Assembly (NCBI RefSeq): GCF_000173355.1
Contig: NZ_ABXA01000047.1
Coordinates: 1 to 64,000, forward strand
Length of the DNA stretch: 64,000 bases
Source of the DNA: Anaerococcus hydrogenalis DSM 7454
Lineage (GTDB): Bacteria; Bacillota; Clostridia; Tissierellales; Peptoniphilaceae
Reading direction: 5' to 3'
Part shown: piece by piece, positions 1-20,062 of the stretch
Layout: every line of letters starts with the position of its first letter
How positions within the stretch are numbered: the stretch's first letter is position 1
Made by a program: the position numbers and the translations under genes
Notes under the pieces: model-generated
The model's input: the letters and a program-made list of their open reading frames with translations, nothing else
Database searches by the model: none
Told to the model about the DNA's origin: nothing

Positions 1-438
1 ACCCGAAGGCCTTCTAAATCACGCGGCGTCGCTGCATCAGGGTTTCCCCCATTGTGCAAAATTCCCCACTGCTGCCTCCCGTAGGAGTTTGGGCCGTGTC
101 TCAGTCCCAATGTGGCCGTACACTCTCTCAAGCCGGCTACTGATCGTCGCCTTGGTGAGCTTTTATCTCACCAACTAGCTAATCAGACGCAAGTCCATCT
201 TACACCGATAAATCTTTGGTCTTTCCAGCATGGGCTGATTAGACTTTATAGGGTATTATTCTCCGTTTCCAGAGGCTATCCCCTTGTGTAAGGCAGGTTA
301 CTCACGTGTTACTCACCCGTTCGCCACTAATCCACTTAAGTTCATTCCGAAGAAATCATCTAAGTTTCATCGTTCGACTTGCATGTGTTATGCACGCCGC
401 CAGCGTTTATCCTGAGCCAGGATCAAACTCTCAATTAA
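1..438 (-). rRNA. rrs: 16S ribosomal RNA, 5' portion (runs off the left edge)
   Basis: The reverse complement starts with the universal AGAGTTTGATCCTGGCTCAG block (413-432 on the plus strand) and continues through V1-V2 to the conserved ACTCCTACGGGAGGCAGCAG site near 70-90. Only about the first 440 nt of roughly 1,500 are present; the rest lies left of the window. The mature 5' end is estimated at 438 by comparison with other 16S genes. The variable-region wording (ATAACACATGCAAGTCGAACGATGAA-type start) is what I associate with Anaerococcus. Three tandem promoters lie upstream, at 563-778. Confidence 0.97.
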
Positions 439-9501: not shown

Positions 9502-9690
9502 TTAAAAGAAAAATATTAAAGAGGTAAATAAGAGAAGTATTAGTAAGACTGGTGGCATAAAAACTTTCATGGCTGCCAAAAACATGGCAAGTCTATCGTC
9601 TTTTTCCAAGTTGTCTTTTTCTAAAAGTTCTTCTTTTTCATAGATTTCTTCTTTACTTTTGTTTTTGAAGGGATCTATTGGTCTTTTCAT
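9502..9690 (-). CDS. Small single-pass membrane protein after oppF
   Basis: The 62-residue protein has a charged N-terminal half (KNKSKEEIYEKEELLEK) and one C-terminal hydrophobic helix of about 22 residues (VFMPPVLLILLLFTSLIFFF). Its ATG overlaps the oppF stop (ATGA), so it is translationally coupled to the transporter operon and is probably expressed with it. I recognise no family; an accessory subunit is possible but unproven. Confidence 0.65.
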   Translation of the reverse strand: MKRPIDPFKNKSKEEIYEKEELLEKDNLEKDDRLAMFLAAMKVFMPPVLLILLLFTSLIFFF

Positions 9691-11302
9691 AGATTAGCTT
9701 CCTTAGCTAATTCGTGTTCTTCTTTGAGTCTCTTTTCTTCGTTTTTTTCAAAGGCTTCTTGTTTTGTTTTTTCTGATACATCCATCAAGTGGCAAGCTAC
9801 AAAATGACCTTCTTCTACTTCTTTTAATTCTGGTTCAAATTGTTTGCAAATGTCCATGCAATATTTACATCTTGTATGGAAACGGCACCCCTTTGGTGGC
9901 CTTACAGCTGATGGAATATCTCCATCAATTGTTTGTAATTCTTGCCCCTTATCAACATCTGTTCTTGGAATTGCTTGTAAAAGCGCCTTTGTGTAAGGGT
10001 GTTGAGGATTTTTGAAAATCCTATCTGAATCAGAAAGCTCAACCATAACTCCCAAATACATTACCCCAATCCTATCAGAAATATATTTTACAACTGAAAG
10101 GTCATGGGTTATGAAAAGATAGGTTAGGTTTAAGTCTGTTTTTAAATCTTGCAATAAGTTTATAATTTGTGATTGAATTGAAACGTCAAGGGCTGATACT
10201 GCCTCATCGCAAACTATAAAAGTTGGGTTTAAGGCAAGGGCCCTGGCTATTCCTATTCTTTGCCTTTGTCCACCGGAAAATTGGTGAGGGTACCTGTGAA
10301 TGAAATATGGGGCAAGTCCACATTGGTTCATTACATCTTGGATATATTCGTTGTAGCCAGCTTCTTTTCTTGATTTGAAAAGTCCATGGCCCAAGACACC
10401 TTCTCCAATTATATTTCCAACTGTCATTTTTGTATCCAAAGAACCATAAGGGTCTTGGAAAATTATTTGAAGATCTTTTCTAAGCTCTCTCATTTCCTCA
10501 TTTGTAAGTCTTGATAAATCTATTCCATCATCTACAAAACTTTCAAATTTTTCAAAGAGGTCTTTTGATTTTAACTGATCTTTCTTAGACTTTATTTTTT
10601 GCTCTTTTTCCAAAACTTCCTTATCAAGTTTTTCTTTTTTACTTAAAAGTTCCTTGTATTTTGGATCATTTAGGATAGCATTTTTTAATTCTTTTTTATC
10701 CCTAATCCTTACTTGATCTTTTTCTTTTATTTTTTTGATTTGAAGTAAAACTTTTGATCTTTCTTTTATTTTTTTGTAATAATCATCTAAAATATTTGTA
10801 ATTTCTTCTAAATTATCACTAGCAAGAAGTCCTCCTGCTATTCTCATCATATTTTCATATTCTTCTTGGAGAAGTCTTCTTTGATTCATAGCAGCTTCGT
10901 TTAATTCAGCTTTTTTTTCTTCATCATCAGTTTTTTCTAAATCATCATAAATTTTATGAAGTTTTTCCACCTCAGCATCGTATGAAGGAAATACTTTTGG
11001 TATGTCTTTTATATCCTTTCCCATATAAGCTGGGGCAAGTTTGTCAAGGGTTGTTCCATAATATAGGGTTGTTCCTTCAGTTTGTTCATAAATTTGAAGA
11101 ATAGTCCTACCAAAGGTGGATTTTCCACAACCACTTTCTCCAACCAAACCAAAAGTTTCACCTTCAAATATATCTATTGAAATATTTTCGTTAGCATGGA
11201 CATATTCATTTGCTCCCCTAGAAAAGATAGATTTTTCTTTATTGGAAAATATTTTTTAAGATTTCTTATTTTAAATAAGACTTTTTTATTATTTTTCTCC
11301 AT
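9687..11302 (-). pseudogene. oppF: Oligopeptide ABC transporter ATPase OppF with coiled-coil insert, one frameshift
   Basis: OppF is one of two ATPases driving peptide import through OppBC. The gene starts at ATG 11302 inside the oppD end. Frame is lost at 11232-11236, where the minus strand has A5; one extra A gives KKKSIFSRGANEYVHANENI and leads into GLVGESGCGKST (Walker A). Downstream come FQDPYGSLD (Q-loop), SGGQRQRIGIARAL (signature), VCDEAVSALD (Walker B) and the cysteine-rich OppF C-terminus. Between Walker A and the Q-loop lies an insert of about 165 mostly charged, helical residues absent from ordinary OppF, raising the length from ~320 to ~538. The remaining coding capacity looks intact, so the frameshift may be a base-calling error. 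Confidence 0.87.
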
Positions 11303-12293
11303 CTTCTCTCTCCTTTCTATTTGGGAAGTGACACCTTATTTTTTGATTTTCATTTACAGCCACAAGCTCCGGCATTTCTTTCCTACATTTGTCACTAGCA
11401 TACTTACACCTATCTGCAAATTTACACCCATCAGGTAGGTTAAGTGGATGTGGAACTGATCCTGGTATTATATCAAGTCTTTCGTTTCTATCGCTTGTTA
11501 TTGCAGGGATAGAATTTAAAAGAGCAACTGTATATGGGTGGTTGTAATCTGTTATATCGTGTTTAAAAATATAATCTACTGGAGATTGTTCAACAATTTG
11601 TCCACAATACATTACAGCAACCTCATCTGCCATTTGATTTATAACTCCCAAATCATGGGTTATAAATAAAATTGATGTGTTTTGCTTTTCCTTTAATTCG
11701 TTCATCAACTTTAGAATTTGAGCTTGAATTGTAACATCAAGAGCTGTAGTTGGCTCATCTGCTATAAGTAATTTTGGTTCACAAGCAAGGGCCATGGCTA
11801 TCATAACCCTTTGGTTCATACCACCAGAAAGCTCAAATGGATATTGTTTGGCAACAACATGAGGATTAGGAATTTTTACTTGGGCAAGTAGTTCTTCCAC
11901 TCTTTTTGCAGCCTCTTTCTTATTCATTTTTTTGTGAAGGATCAAAACTTCTGAAATTTGTTTTTCAACAGTAAAAACCGGATTTAAAGAGCTCATTGGT
12001 TCTTGGAAAATCATAGAAATATCATTTCCCCTAATCTTTTCCATTTGAGATCTCTTGTAGTCAGAAATCTTTTTGCCATCAAAAATAATTTCTCCATCGT
12101 AAATTTTTTGGTTTGGCTCAAAAAGTTGAAGGATACTCATGGCAGTTTGACTTTTTCCAGAACCACTTTCTCCAACAAGGCCCAAAGTTTTTCCTTCTTC
12201 AATTGTGCATGATACTCCATTTACAGCCTTTATAAGACCACGTCTTGTTTTAAAGTAGGTATGGAGTTTATTTATTTCAAGTAAATTTTTCAT
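11289..12293 (-). CDS. oppD: Oligopeptide ABC transporter ATPase OppD
   Basis: The 334-residue ATPase has Walker [11 protein letters not shown]-loop [10 protein letters not shown], signature [12 protein letters not shown] and Walker [13 protein letters not shown], followed by the OppD/F C-terminal extension with cysteines ([14 protein letters not shown]) that in some members binds an iron-sulfur cluster. It has no extra insert, unlike its partner OppF. The gene follows oppC by 8 bp and overlaps oppF by 14 bp. Confidence 0.95.
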
Positions 12294-12301
12294 TTTTACA
12301 C

Positions 12302-14248
12302 CTATCTCTCATTTGATCTTGGATCTATTGCATCTCTTAGGGCATCTCCAATTAAGTTTACTGAAAATGCTGCCAAAAATACTGCAAGTGCTGGTATTAC
12401 CCATCTCCACCAGTAAATATTAATTACATCTGATGATTGGGCACTTGTCATCATATTTCCCCAAGATGGCATAGGTTCTTGGACACCAAAACCTAAGAAA
12501 GAAAGTCCTGCTTCTGTAAGGAGGTTTCCAGCAAAACCAAGGGTAGCATTTACTATAATTATTGAAAGAATATTTGGAAGTATATGCCTTACAAGAATTG
12601 ATGAATTTGTAACACCCAAAGCCCTTGCTGCTATTACATAATCTCTTTCTCTTTCAGCCAAAATTTGTCCACGAACAAGCCTTGCTATTCCTGTCCATCC
12701 AATAACTCCAAGTAAAACCATGATCATCATAAGTCTTGTATTTTGACTAGTATTTACAGGAAGGAGGGCAGAAAGTGTGATAATTAATGGATAAAATGGG
12801 AATGATTGAACAATTTCAGTAATTCTCATAAGAACATTATCAACACGTCCTCCAGCATAACCTGAAACCATACCAATAATTACACCAAGAACAACTTGGA
12901 TTAGAACTGATACAAAAGAAATTACAATAGTCATCTTTCCACCGTGAATGAGTCTTGTAAAAATATCACGTCCTTGGTCATCTGATCCGAACCTAAATCC
13001 TTTTAGTCCCCAAGTATCAATTTTATTATCTTTACTTACGGCATAGTTATTAAAATATCCTGAAAATATTTGTTCATATTTTCCACTAGGACAAGTTGCC
13101 TCACCGTAATTATTATTTCCCCAAGAATAAAGTTTGCCGTTTTCATCAAGGGCTGTGAAGTGGTTTGTACCACCAACTATGTCCTTAACTTTTCCCTCAA
13201 ATTTAGGAACATTTTTTCCAGATAAATTATCCCTAGAAGGTCCCCATACATAAAGTTTGCCAGTCTCATCAAGAGCTGCTGCAGAATTTGATGTTAAGGC
13301 AACCTTTGTAATTTTAACCTTATTATTTTTAATCTCATCAGGAGCTCCTACATCAACCTCAGCTCCCCTTACACCAAGAAGTTTTGTAGACCCATCTTTT
13401 AAAACAGCAAGAATATTTGAACCACTTGTATCAAAATCTACAACTTTTCCTTGAACTTCTTTTGGGATAAGGTCAAGTCTTGAGTTCATTGTTGAACCCC
13501 AAACATAAATATTATTTTTTTCAGTCAAAACGACAGAATATTGAACTCCACCGCCAAGTTTTTTAATACCTTCTTCTTTAATTTTACTTTCTTGCATTGG
13601 TGGAAGTTCAGCTTGTTGGAAAGAATCATTTCCCCAACCATAAAGCTCATTATCTTCTGTAGCTACAATAATATGCCTATCCCCTGCAGCAACATCTTTT
13701 ATTTTTTTGCCATCAAGTTCTTCTTTAATATCATCAGGGATTTTCATAACATCATCTTCGTTATTTTTTCCCCAAAAATAGTAATTTTTCTCCTTAGTAA
13801 GACCTACACCAAAAGTATTTCCTACAGAAATCTTCTCAACCCCTTCTTTTTCCATTTGAGATGGGTATTTCATATAGCCTGAACCTGGGGAAACATTAAT
13901 AAGATTTCCCTCAGCTTGGTAAGGATTAAAAGGAATTATTGCTGACCCAATAAAAACAACAAGGATAATTCCAAGAAGTAGGACAAGTCCAATAAGTCCA
14001 AGAGGGTTTCTAAAATAATTTTTAACAGCCATTTTTCCAGGAGAAGTAATGGCATCTTCCTTTAAAGACTCATTTTCATTTAATCTAAGGTCTTCTAAAT
14101 TTTCTCCACTTTGCTCATCAAGAAGATCTTGAGCCCTATCCTTAATCTTATCCTCTTCACTCTCATCATTTGCATTTGTACCAAAAGTAAACAAGGAAAG
14201 AACTAATTTTCCAAAAGATTTAAATGATTTTTTTAATTCATCTTTCAT
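12302..14248 (-). CDS. oppC: OppC permease with an extracytoplasmic RCC1-like seven-repeat propeller
   Basis: OppC is one of two membrane subunits of the peptide importer. Residues 1-75 are cytosolic and charged, and the first helix is at ~82-108. A typical OppC passes directly from PFNPYQ to the GSDDQGRDIF motif, but here about 285 residues intervene (~131-418). They contain seven repeats ending in a W-G or equivalent (positions 159, 205, 250, degenerate at ~291, 335, 376, 413) with GGxxHxxAL-type cores, the hallmark of an RCC1 beta-propeller. Residues 419-648 are an ordinary permease with the EAA-like loop and five helices. By topology the propeller should lie outside the membrane. GGAGG precedes the ATG. 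Confidence 0.93.
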   Translation of the reverse strand: MKDELKKSFKSFGKLVLSLFTFGTNANDESEEDKIKDRAQDLLDEQSGENLEDLRLNENESLKEDAITSPGKMAVKNYFRNPLGLIGLVLLLGIILVVFIGSAIIPFNPYQAEGNLINVSPGSGYMKYPSQMEKEGVEKISVGNTFGVGLTKEKNYYFWGKNNEDDVMKIPDDIKEELDGKKIKDVAAGDRHIIVATEDNELYGWGNDSFQQAELPPMQESKIKEEGIKKLGGGVQYSVVLTEKNNIYVWGSTMNSRLDLIPKEVQGKVVDFDTSGSNILAVLKDGSTKLLGVRGAEVDVGAPDEIKNNKVKITKVALTSNSAAALDETGKLYVWGPSRDNLSGKNVPKFEGKVKDIVGGTNHFTALDENGKLYSWGNNNYGEATCPSGKYEQIFSGYFNNYAVSKDNKIDTWGLKGFRFGSDDQGRDIFTRLIHGGKMTIVISFVSVLIQVVLGVIIGMVSGYAGGRVDNVLMRITEIVQSFPFYPLIITLSALLPVNTSQNTRLMMIMVLLGVIGWTGIARLVRGQILAERERDYVIAARALGVTNSSILVRHILPNILSIIIVNATLGFAGNLLTEAGLSFLGFGVQEPMPSWGNMMTSAQSSDVINIYWWRWVIPALAVFLAAFSVNLIGDALRDAIDPRSNER

Positions 14249-14249
14249 A

Positions 14250-15212
14250 CTAAGCCTCCAATTTTACTCTAGGATCAACAAGGGCATAGGCAATATCCAT
14301 AATCAAGTTTCCAAGAAGGGTTAAAATTGCATAAAACATTGTTAGTGCAAGGATAACATTATAATCTTGAGCCAAAACTGATTTAATAAGAATATTTCCA
14401 ATTCCCCTGTAAGCAAAAATAGTTTCAGTTATAGCAGAACCTGAAAACATAGAAAGAATTGCCCAAGTCATAGCAGTTACAACTGGTATAAGGGCATTTC
14501 TAAAAGCGTGAGAATAAATTACAGTCTTTTCCTTAAGCCCCTTTGCTCTCGCAGTTCTAATATAATCTTCATTAAGTGAATCTAGCATAGAATTTCTAAC
14601 ATATCTAGAAATAGATGCCATAGATCCAAAAGTTAAAGTTAAAGTAGGTAAAATTAAATATCTTATCCACTCACCAAAAGTATTATTTCTAGGCATACCA
14701 TTTGCTGGCAACCATCCTAGCCTAAAGGCAAATAAGAATATCAAAAATAAACCTATAAAAAATGTAGGCAAGGAAATACCAACCAAGGTAAAGACCTGGA
14801 AGAATTTATCAAAAACTCCTCCCTTGTGAACGGCTGACCTTATTCCTATAAGAACCGAAAGCACAAAAGAAACAAGGGTTGAACCAATATTAAGTAAAAT
14901 TGTATTTTTAAGTGGTTCAGAAAGATATTCCTTAACAGGTCTTTTAACTTGGGTAGATTCACCATAATCTCCCTTCAAACTTCTTCCCATCCACATAAAA
15001 TATTGTTCTGGCAACGATTTATCATAACCATAACGTTTTTCAAGATTTTTATACATTTGTTCTTGTTGGGCCTTGGTCATTCTTCCATCCTTTGGCATCA
15101 TAGCCAAGATAGGATCACCAGGCATGGATTTAGAAAGCACAAAAACCAAGATAGATATGATTATAGCTACTGGAATCAAATTTATGATTCTCTTTATTAT
15201 GTATTTTAACAT
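14250..15212 (-). CDS. oppB: Oligopeptide ABC transporter permease OppB
   Basis: The 320-residue membrane protein has six hydrophobic segments, the N-terminal LKYIIKRIINLIPVAIIISILVF-type signature helix, SMPGDP after it and the cytoplasmic loop RTARAKGLKEKTVIYSHAFRNALIP that docks on the ATPase. I chose the ATG at 15212 because AAGGAAGGG lies upstream at suitable distance; ATGs at 15218 and 15248 are alternatives. It precedes oppC by one base. Confidence 0.95.
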   Translation of the reverse strand: MLKYIIKRIINLIPVAIIISILVFVLSKSMPGDPILAMMPKDGRMTKAQQEQMYKNLEKRYGYDKSLPEQYFMWMGRSLKGDYGESTQVKRPVKEYLSEPLKNTILLNIGSTLVSFVLSVLIGIRSAVHKGGVFDKFFQVFTLVGISLPTFFIGLFLIFLFAFRLGWLPANGMPRNNTFGEWIRYLILPTLTLTFGSMASISRYVRNSMLDSLNEDYIRTARAKGLKEKTVIYSHAFRNALIPVVTAMTWAILSMFSGSAITETIFAYRGIGNILIKSVLAQDYNVILALTMFYAILTLLGNLIMDIAYALVDPRVKLEA

Positions 15213-15703
15213 CTTCATCCCTTCCTTAATGTTTTTAAATTTACCCATTTACTTATTCTTAACTTTAATTTGATAAAGATAAATAATTATTTTCACAAAA
15301 ATTTATACAGAGGAAAACATTAACTATAAAAATTTATAAATAAATATAAAAATCTCAGTATAGAGTAAACTTATAATATCATAGTCCTAATAATAATATA
15401 AGATGAGTGATTTGTCAATGTGAAATTTATCATAAATTTATAAAGATTGATATATATTTTTAAAGATTCATTATTTATGAGCATAAAATTACATTAATGA
15501 ATATTAATTAAAAATTATTCCTATAGTGCATTAATACTCTAATGTTTTTCATATATAAAGGTGAATTTTGAAAATAAATAAAAATAAAAAGGGGGAATTT
15601 ATAAAAAATGAAAAATAAAGAAAACCATGTTATAAAAAAAAAGCAAAAGAATAATTTATTATTAATTCAAGGAATAAAGTAAATTCCACCTAAAGCTAAT
15701 AAA

Positions 15704-15730
15704 GAGATTTCTCGACAGGCTCGAAATGGG
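15704..15730 (+). repeat. Short palindromic repeat copy S3
   Basis: GAGATTTCTCGACAGGCTCG followed by AAATGGG. It starts the first of two tandem 345-bp units in the oppA-oppB gap. Confidence 0.72.
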
Positions 15731-15945
15731 TTTGTCTTTATATTTGATTTATTTCTTCGGATTTATTTAATATTAAAAATGAATTAAGAAGTTTTTAAAT
15801 TAACTAGAATTGATATTTTTATATTTTATTTATTCTAATAATTTTATTTAAATCTTCACTTTTATTAAATTTAAGCTTAATTTTTAAAATATAATAAAAA
15901 AACAATAAACTTACTACTTTAGCCTAAAAGTAAATACAGACTACA

Positions 15946-15972
15946 CCCATCTCGAGCCTAGTCGAGAGATCT
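15946..15972 (-). repeat. Short palindromic repeat copy S4
   Basis: CCCATCTCGAGCCTAGTCGA followed by GAGATCT. Closes the first tandem unit; the orientation is opposite to S3. Confidence 0.72.
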
Positions 15973-16004
15973 AATGGAATAGGATGATAGTGAAAATTGA
16001 ATTT

Positions 16005-16320
16005 ATTAATTCAAGGAAGAAAGTAAATTTCACTCTAAAGCTAATAAAGAGATTTCTCGGCAGGCTCGAAATGGGTTAATTCTTTATACTCGATTTATTC
16101 CTTCGGATTTATTTAATATCAAAATAAATTAATATATTGCTAAACATCCTATAAATAGTAAGTTTATATTTATTTTTCTAATTATTTTATTTAAATCTTC
16201 ACTTTTATTCTTATTAAATATATATTTCAAATGTAAATCTTTAAAAAATAACAAACTTCTTACTTTAGTCTAAAAGTAAATAAAAACTACACCCATCTAG
16301 AGCTAAGTCGAGAGATCTAT
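16005..16320 (+). repeat. Composite repeat unit 2 (tandem copy)
   Basis: Same order as unit 1: S5 at 16049-16075 (345 bp after S3), TTCGGATTTATTTAATAT, TTATTTAAATCTTCACTTTT, a CTTACTTTAGTCTAAAAGTA block, and S6 at 16292-16318 (346 bp after S4). Point differences show that the copies have diverged since duplication. Confidence 0.75.
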
Positions 16321-19084: not shown

Positions 19085-20062
19085 ATGAAAAAGAAAATAG
19101 CACTTGCTCTTTGTTTATCTCTTGTTTTGACCTCATGTTCATTGAAAAGCAAAAACAATGATAAATCAAATAGCAACGAACTTAAAAGCCAATCTAATAC
19201 TCAAAATAATTTGATAATAGGTGAAAGTAAGGACAACAAATCTAATAATTTATCAAAATCAAATGAAAAAATCGAATCACCTTCAAAGACTTTATCTATC
19301 AAGGATATTAAAAAAGCTATGGTAGATTTGGGTGGATTTGACCAAGCCTTTACTGATAAGTTAAGCGATAAGGAAATTAAATCTTATCAAAAAGATGCAG
19401 ATCAACTTAGCAAAAAAACAGGTTTTTGGAACAAACTAACCCTAATGTTTAACCAAATTGCCAAAGAAAATCCAAATACCAGTAGATTTTATCCAGATTC
19501 TAGTATAGAAGATGTGGTAAATAATTGGGTTTATTCAACAGATGAAGGACTTGACCATTACGCAAATGCCAGAGTTTATATAGGACAAAACGGCTTTGAC
19601 GCATCCCAAGTTCCAAACGGTGAGCTTAGAAAAATCTTTAATGAAGTTTATGACGAAAACAAATATGCAACTTATGATGAAAATATTGAAAAAGCTAGCC
19701 AAAAATTAAAGAAAAAATATCCAAACGGATATGAAGGAAAAGAAAATTCTGAAAAAGAAGATACAAAAGAAGAAAAGGACAATTCACAAGCTAAAACAAG
19801 CTTAGATCAAGGAAATAGACCAGTGGACAAATTCTCTGAAAACAAAAAAGATTATGATGCCTTTAGAAAAGAATTGGTAGACCAATATAAATTTTCTAAA
19901 AAATCCGTTGAAAAAATTACAAATAACGACATAGACCTAGCCTACCTAAGAGCTCAAAAGAAATTAGAAGATGAAGGATTTGGCGATATAGGACTTGTAA
20001 TAAATGAAATAGCAAAAATGTATCCAGGTTCATCATCAATGTACCCAGGAAATGAAAATTAG
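19085..20062 (+). CDS. Lipoprotein with a duplicated domain, function unknown
   Basis: The signal peptide ends in LTSC (Cys at ~18), followed by a Ser/Asn/Lys-rich linker to ~residue 70. Two related domains follow (~72-145 and ~250-325), each ending in a similar block: FNQIAKENPNTSRFYPDSS and INEIAKMYPGSSSMYPGNEN. Between them lies a charged spacer. I recognise no family. GGAGG precedes the ATG. It is divergent from oppA and followed by its own terminator. Confidence 0.75.
   Translation: MKKKIALALCLSLVLTSCSLKSKNNDKSNSNELKSQSNTQNNLIIGESKDNKSNNLSKSNEKIESPSKTLSIKDIKKAMVDLGGFDQAFTDKLSDKEIKSYQKDADQLSKKTGFWNKLTLMFNQIAKENPNTSRFYPDSSIEDVVNNWVYSTDEGLDHYANARVYIGQNGFDASQVPNGELRKIFNEVYDENKYATYDENIEKASQKLKKKYPNGYEGKENSEKEDTKEEKDNSQAKTSLDQGNRPVDKFSENKKDYDAFRKELVDQYKFSKKSVEKITNNDIDLAYLRAQKKLEDEGFGDIGLVINEIAKMYPGSSSMYPGNEN

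Follow-up and report, generated by a model that had tools for sequence, protein, structure and literature searches.

A putative oligopeptide importer of Anaerococcus hydrogenalis with a predicted seven-bladed propeller inside its OppC permease

Introduction

Oligopeptide (Opp) importers supply bacteria with peptides, and Gram-positive bacteria also import signalling peptides through them. A sequence-only reading of a stretch of 64,000 nucleotides from Anaerococcus hydrogenalis DSM 7454 (contig NZ_ABXA01000047.1, positions 1 to 64,000; hereafter the window) claimed that the OppC permease of one such importer carries a complete RCC1-like propeller in its first outer loop. The locus raises two questions: whether a domain of this kind is truly part of the permease, and what it might do there.

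The opp locus of A. hydrogenalis

The genes of this locus look like those of a putative OppABCDF oligopeptide importer of a distinct subtype, forming an operon in the order oppA-B-C-D-F (Table 1). The oppC reading frame, which ends in a stop codon after 648 codons, has the boundaries that were given in the sequence-only reading. The same gene order was found in homologous loci wherever contigs extend far enough, with oppF being split over two frames in a few of them. An exception is seen in Anaerococcus sp. 9403502 (locus L080, 5599-11222), where a second propeller-containing OppC occurs in the order B-C-A with no full OppD/OppF adjacent to it; this set presumably shares the ATPases of the main operon. 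The N-terminal segment of the source oppF (window 11147-11302, minus strand) is out of frame with the rest of the gene in the source assembly. The 24 other congeneric genomes examined all have this frame whole (549-564 aa), and the break in the source genome is either a sequencing error or real.

Table 1. Features of the opp locus, with positions in the window (residue numbers refer to OppC)
Feature	Position	Strand	Basis
OppC permease with propeller insert, 648 aa	12302..14248	(-)	ORF list, Pfam, NCBIfam
OppC_N, first membrane helix region, residues 69-113	13910..14044	(-)	Pfam; helix 82-104 in AlphaFold2 model
Seven-blade RCC1/BLIP-II-type propeller and linkers, residues 122-418	12995..13885	(-)	Pfam, AlphaFold2, fold searches, repeat test
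OppC membrane domain TM2-TM6, residues 429-648	12305..12964	(-)	Pfam BPD_transp_1; match to E. coli OppC 8z21_B
OppB permease, 332 aa, upstream partner of OppC	14250..15248	(-)	ORF, Pfam, NCBIfam
OppA peptide-binding lipoprotein, 708 aa	16593..18719	(-)	ORF, Pfam, NCBIfam; same order in homologous loci
OppD ATPase, 334 aa, ordinary length	11289..12293	(-)	ORF, Pfam
OppF ATPase	9687..11302 (open frame 9687-11147; N-terminal part to ~11302 in another frame)	(-)	ORF, Pfam
Four-helix insert in OppF, Walker A to Q-loop	10518..11048	(-)	Placed from L055 model; profile match 10476-11108

Several other elements were observed around the operon. In the gap between oppA and oppB (window 15659-16319) an AT-rich unit of approximately 345 bases occurs twice, with pieces that are 72-94% alike and motifs containing CTCGA. 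A small lipoprotein gene (window 19085-20062, plus strand) lies divergent from oppA and has a weak YhcN/YlaJ match; a lipoprotein of similar appearance, as judged by eye, is found near opp in nine Anaerococcus loci. A partial 16S rRNA gene is located at the window edge (1-438, minus strand). Rfam searches of the window and of nine loci revealed no regulatory RNA in front of the opp operon at gathering scores, the sole riboswitch found being glmS in L062, located behind oppF and in front of a glmS-like gene.

Propeller domain of OppC

Pfam analysis of OppC identified OppC_N and BPD_transp_1 (residues 455-644, E-value 2.1e-30), in this order and above gathering score, with the insert matching RCC1_2 in six stretches and WD40_RLD ('RCC1-like domain') with an E-value of 9.4e-47. 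Sequence searches of the PDB matched residues 416-645 to OppC of Escherichia coli (8z21_B, E-value 8.5e-51) and the insert to UVR8 (4dnu_A, 7e-20), HERC2 and BLIP-II (1jtd_B, 5e-12). Six blades end in W-G, at residues 159, 205, 250, 335, 376 and 413, while blade 4 has a degenerate end, L-G, at residues 291-292. Shuffled inserts possessed a mean of 0.67 and a maximum of 4 W-G pairs (2000 shuffles), and the mean blade-to-blade score was 38.7 compared with 19.3 (sd 0.9) in 200 shuffles; chance repeats are thereby ruled out as the source of the blade pattern. RCC1 proper, the stand-alone nuclear Ran GEF, is also ruled out as the identity of this domain, which sits inside a bacterial membrane permease.

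AlphaFold2 modelling of OppC (alignment of 56 rows, mean pLDDT 84.1, pTM 0.76) predicted seven three-stranded blades within residues 137-414. The pLDDT of the propeller was approximately 91, ranging from 81 to 95 by block of ten residues (131-410) and reaching at least 90 in 21 of the 28 blocks. The predicted structure is a closed seven-blade ring, the outcome by which the earlier reading had proposed that its claim be judged. Among PDB structures, BLIP-II (3qi0_C) was closest to the propeller (Z 31.2, 255 residues, 2.0 Å, model residues 122-405). The remainder of the protein matched 8z21_B over 278 of 278 residues (Z 30.1, 2.0 Å, model residues 67-643) as well as 8z1w_B (E. coli DppC/OppC, Z 30.3), and a Foldseek search with the OppC model gave the same picture. 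As the match to 8z21_B takes in all of its 278 residues, the propeller can be described as an insertion between TM1 and TM2, and the model predicts a complete propeller at this point of an otherwise normal OppC.

The claim of an OppC permease with an RCC1-like insert is thus borne out by the reading frame, Pfam, AlphaFold2 and the fold matches, and that of a full RCC1/BLIP-II-type circle by the six W-G ends with the single L-G, the seven predicted blades and the Z-score of 31 with BLIP-II. Its placement in the outer loop, on the side of the binding protein, agrees with the fold match to E. coli OppC/DppC (residues 67-645) and with the topology given in PMC12136057. The length of about 20-30 residues ascribed to this loop in ordinary OppCs was likewise seen in two of them (L050 and L052, judged by eye). 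That the TM1-TM2 extracellular loop of OppC holds a propeller is regarded as close to certain.

The W-G and glycine positions of the propeller are invariant among homologues. Conservation is lowest within the propeller in the long inter-blade loops of blades 1 to 6 (0.34-0.43), and the linker leading into TM2 (residues 411-428) scores 0.64 compared with 0.46 for the propeller. When examined by loop class, the propeller showed no evident conserved binding face, its conserved positions being structural ones and the N-Y-A motif of blade 7. One homologue of 707 aa (L154, 5943-8063, minus strand) possesses an extra acidic stretch of approximately 60-70 residues between early blades.

Distribution and origin of the propeller OppC

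Full-length matches were identified in every one of 30 congeneric genomes besides the source, in five of 30 from elsewhere in the family and in four of 40 from the order. With so few matches in the family, most of its other genera seem to be without a propeller OppC. A contig scan of 84,980 species using 13 insert sequences yielded 182 confirmed loci, the best 80 of which were inspected, and the OppC frame was continuous across the insert in 80/80. These loci and the 30 congeneric genomes exclude both an assembly join and a frame artefact as the origin of this OppC; the sequence-only reading had named such a join as a possible source of the arrangement, and the same architecture runs unbroken through many separate assemblies.

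Among the best 80 of the 182 loci are those of Anaerococcus, other Peptoniphilaceae and further Tissierellia. Also represented among these 80 are Erysipelotrichaceae (Longicatena; Solobacterium and Erysipelothrix MAGs), Oscillospiraceae (Gemmiger), Lachnospiraceae (Hungatella, Roseburia MAGs), a Christensenella MAG, a Clostridium sp. and two Mycoplasmatota, namely Peloplasma (L114, Acholeplasmataceae) and a Tenericutes MAG (L100). The search of homologues, which had been suggested along with the original claim, accordingly finds the insert in several families of Bacillota and in Mycoplasmatota. Even draws of genomes contained a propeller OppC in 13 of 291 members of the class and 14 of 398 members of the phylum, the source genome being counted in both. 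All loci behind these matches encode OppC frames with insert and membrane domain, one from the phylum set (L174) being cut by the contig start; the other matches, which showed partial profile coverage and mostly other frame lengths, were presumed to be other RCC1 proteins. The propeller OppC is a widespread clade and no curiosity of one genome.

A maximum-likelihood tree of the OppC membrane domain was built with the insert left out (89 rows: 61 propeller, 25 ordinary and three with other inserts; 26 near-copies of 115 rows were omitted). In this tree, a quick one that carried a long-branch warning, every propeller row falls on one side of a single branch (SH-aLRT 96), with shuffled labels requiring 24 changes on average. 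A single acquisition of the propeller would be the simplest reading, as the tree is compatible with one origin, gain and loss not being separable by it. The mix of families suggests that the propeller OppC may have been transferred between lineages.

Other domains were found in the same loop. Loci L045, L046 and L047 encode a different OppC insert of approximately 278 residues, located just before an L-G-T-D motif and having repeat-like stretches by eye; that of L045 had no match in Pfam or in the PDB sequence search, and the OppF proteins of these three operons are ordinary. A third kind, of approximately 100 residues, sits in the same place in L156-L159 (four of five further loci read), which belong to other families of the order. 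Since these two kinds sit where the propeller does, the TM1-TM2 loop of OppC carries at least three unrelated inserts. Such a loop may simply tolerate domains, in which case the propeller would be a neutral or structural insertion with no specific role, and the 25 of 30 family genomes from other genera that lack a full-length match would fit this. We consider it very improbable, in view of a propeller that is unbroken in all 30 congeneric genomes and in several families and whose W-G and glycine positions do not vary.

A four-helix insert in OppF

The distance from Walker A to the Q-loop in propeller loci is 47 residues in OppD wherever measured and 174-230 residues in most OppF proteins. This was surveyed in 86 distinct propeller loci (80 from the species scan and six others), of which 77 were measurable and nine had no OppF on their stretch; as 25 of the 86 are named Anaerococcus, the loci are not independent. 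A long OppF, with an insert of approximately 175 residues, was found in 71 of the 77 measurable operons, and a short one in the other six (L102, L108, L121, L125, L129 and L131). By comparison, OppF is short in all 25 ordinary operons (42-48 residues) and in all three with other OppC inserts. A profile of the OppF insert recovered 14 of the 291 class genomes, comprising all 13 with the propeller and G200, in which the match lies on a contig of 3,742 bases that ends before OppC. In the phylum set, with its 14 propeller genomes of 398, OppF is long in 11/11 assessable cases, G000 and G063 among them (L168, L169 and L174 were not measurable). A check of 41 genomes found the insert in all 25 genus genomes examined and in G063, and in none of the other 15. 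The propeller OppC therefore usually travels with the OppF insert, whereas an obligate coupling of the two is ruled out by the six exceptions.

AlphaFold2 modelling of OppF from L055, a locus of Anaerococcus vaginalis (46 rows, pLDDT 87.5, pTM 0.87) predicted the insert as four long helices (residues 92-124, 128-161, 165-199 and 214-244) on a normal NBD. The best Foldseek match of this model was 8z21_D of E. coli OppBCDF (TM 0.93 by target length); all 50 matches listed are ABC transporters or ATPases by title, so that this search hardly tests the insert itself. No Pfam match above cut-off was obtained for the insert in three members, and its profile gave weak matches to the PDB (best E-value 1e-4), mostly to coiled-coil chains. 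According to PMC12136057, DppB pairs with DppD and DppC with DppF in E. coli. Should this pairing hold here, we infer that both inserts would be situated on one OppC-OppF half, the propeller outside and the helices inside.

Possible role of the propeller

As an explanation of the whole, we tentatively put forward a distinct Opp subtype in which the propeller would serve as a docking platform for OppA, a reading that comes near to an even chance of being correct. The propeller would act as a rigid protein-binding platform beside the pore mouth, holding or positioning the lipoprotein OppA while it caps OppB/OppC, in addition to the contact made by the OppB scoop. Loaded OppA might as a result dock more often or in a fixed orientation, and the OppF insert, beneath the same OppC half, may tune ATP hydrolysis or bind a cytoplasmic partner. 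RCC1/BLIP-II folds are binders of diverse proteins, BLIP-II being a protein-binding propeller, and this favours docking, as does the fact that, of the proteins encoded with the propeller OppC, OppA alone is an extracytoplasmic partner. In E. coli DppABCDF, as described in PMC12136057, the SBP DppA caps DppB and DppC on the outer side, and the TM1-TM2 region of DppB forms a scoop that enters the DppA cleft. The OppBs of propeller operons retain a TM1-TM2 region of their own, a statement limited to the presence of this region (the motif used for it worked in 46/84 propeller and 11/25 control OppBs).

Docking is also favoured because no further gene recurs beside most loci in the neighbour clusters listed. 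None of the 14 neighbour clusters listed represents a single extra gene adjoining most of the 80 loci: among those spanning more than one clade are a sigma-factor-like gene (10 loci) and an ABC ATPase-like gene (seven), and the remainder occur at fewer loci or in one clade only. Of the one-clade clusters, the two with most loci (16 and 12) are represented by sequences that resemble non-coding frames by eye. The simplest candidates for the partner of the propeller would thus be the substrate and the Opp subunits. In the source genome (84% complete), two family-5 SBPs were found and no second RCC1 repeat protein.

A lipobox, defined by a motif of our own, is present in 73 of the 77 OppAs measured in propeller operons, so that most of these proteins need no receptor for membrane retention. 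Two of the other four are incomplete frames. The OppAs of L101 and L133 are otherwise whole and possess a signal peptide with no lipobox cysteine, as if their membrane retention could come from elsewhere, and they count in favour of docking. The OppA alignment as listed shows just short extra elements. Distance correlations between the propeller and each subunit, corrected for the others (72 loci), gave partial r values of 0.16 for OppA, 0.19 for OppB, 0.29 for OppD and 0.34 for the OppF core, so that this test of co-evolution between OppA and the propeller yielded no OppA-specific signal. This result, the variable long loops and the prevalence of the lipobox weaken the case, and OppA docking as the main role of the propeller is given somewhat less than an even chance.

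The highest of these correlations, that with the OppF core, fits a different reading, in which the propeller would sense an external peptide, ion or surface ligand and alter the ATPase through the TM2 linker and the OppC-OppF half, with the OppF insert as the control or read-out. The co-occurrence of an outer propeller and an inner insert points the same way (71/77 operons, 13/13 class genomes and 11/11 assessable phylum genomes, compared with 0/25 ordinary and 0/3 other-insert operons), as do the DppC-DppF pairing described for E. coli in PMC12136057 and the better conservation of the linker than of the propeller. The six operons in which the OppF insert is missing nevertheless show that coupling is not obligate, both the ligand and the cytoplasmic partner are hypothetical, and the sampled carriers form one group of related sequences, in which co-inheritance alone can explain the association. 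A sensor is unlikely on balance, although it deserves serious consideration. Rather unlikely, too, is a two-sided control in which the OppC propeller would read either a ligand or the OppA state and steer an ATPase bearing a four-helix regulatory or partner-binding arm, the whole being largely one inherited package in Bacillota and Mycoplasmatota.

The variable long loops that weaken OppA docking are what would be expected of a propeller with changing targets outside the importer, such as the cell wall, a surface protease or proteins of the host or of neighbours, which might anchor the importer near a source of peptides; the diversity of proteins bound by RCC1/BLIP-II folds is in keeping with this. 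Mycoplasmatota have no cell wall, and since they are among the carriers, a wall ligand cannot be universal and wall binding is unlikely as a general role. With no protease or surface gene recurring beside most loci in the clusters listed, a target of this kind is judged to be doubtful. Because it sits on the outside of a subunit that forms the pore, the propeller could also cover the translocation path as a lid or gate block. This is highly unlikely, as OppA, encoded in the loci with long enough contigs, would have such a lid as a competitor, and as the propeller joins TM1 and TM2, whereas the pathway of DppB/DppC is lined by TM3-TM6 according to PMC12136057. Docking of OppA is retained as the favoured, tentative role.

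Comparison with known importers and propellers

The existence of a widespread subtype suggests that the E. coli and Mycobacterium tuberculosis models may not hold for its OppA delivery or its ATPase control. Its carriers form a scattered group of gut and body bacteria that includes Anaerococcus and gut-type Erysipelotrichaceae, Oscillospiraceae and Lachnospiraceae, and the TM1-TM2 loop of OppC offers a handle on how a permease gains an extracellular partner domain. No description of the propeller OppC or the OppF insert was found in open-access full text, in agreement with the earlier statement that no described Opp importer is known to be built in this way; domain databases may well list the architecture. 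The words permease and transporter are absent from the accessible part of PMC9218822. Importer and propeller are each of a known kind, and what was not found in open-access print is the two joined together, the spread of this arrangement and the OppF insert that accompanies it.

The best-scoring NCBIfam equivalogs are those of oligopeptide transporter type 4, yet all three fall below their curated cut-offs (Opp4C, 307.6 of 350 bits for OppC; Opp4B, 304.5 of 450 for OppB; Opp4A, 151.1 of 650 for OppA), and the subunits are for this reason considered related to Opp4 rather than members of it. OppC_N and BPD_transp_1 are shared with the known Opp/Dpp importers (E. coli OppBCDF, 8z21, and DppABCDF, 8z1y; M. 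tuberculosis OppABCD, 8j5q), as is the operon order A-B-C-D-F. With E. coli OppBCDF in particular, the TM domain of OppC superposes on 8z21_B and the OppF core matches 8z21_D. What sets the present importer apart from these is the OppC propeller of approximately 290 residues and, in most carriers, the OppF insert of approximately 175 residues. Seven blades and W-G blade ends are held in common with the BLIP-II/RCC1-like propellers (3qi0, 1jtd, UVR8), whereas the present propeller is embedded within a membrane permease. A parallel in position is the scoop of E. coli DppB, which, as described in PMC12136057, is likewise located between TM1 and TM2 and turned towards the SBP; the scoop is an element of approximately 30 residues in the B subunit with no propeller, whereas the propeller described here belongs to the C subunit.
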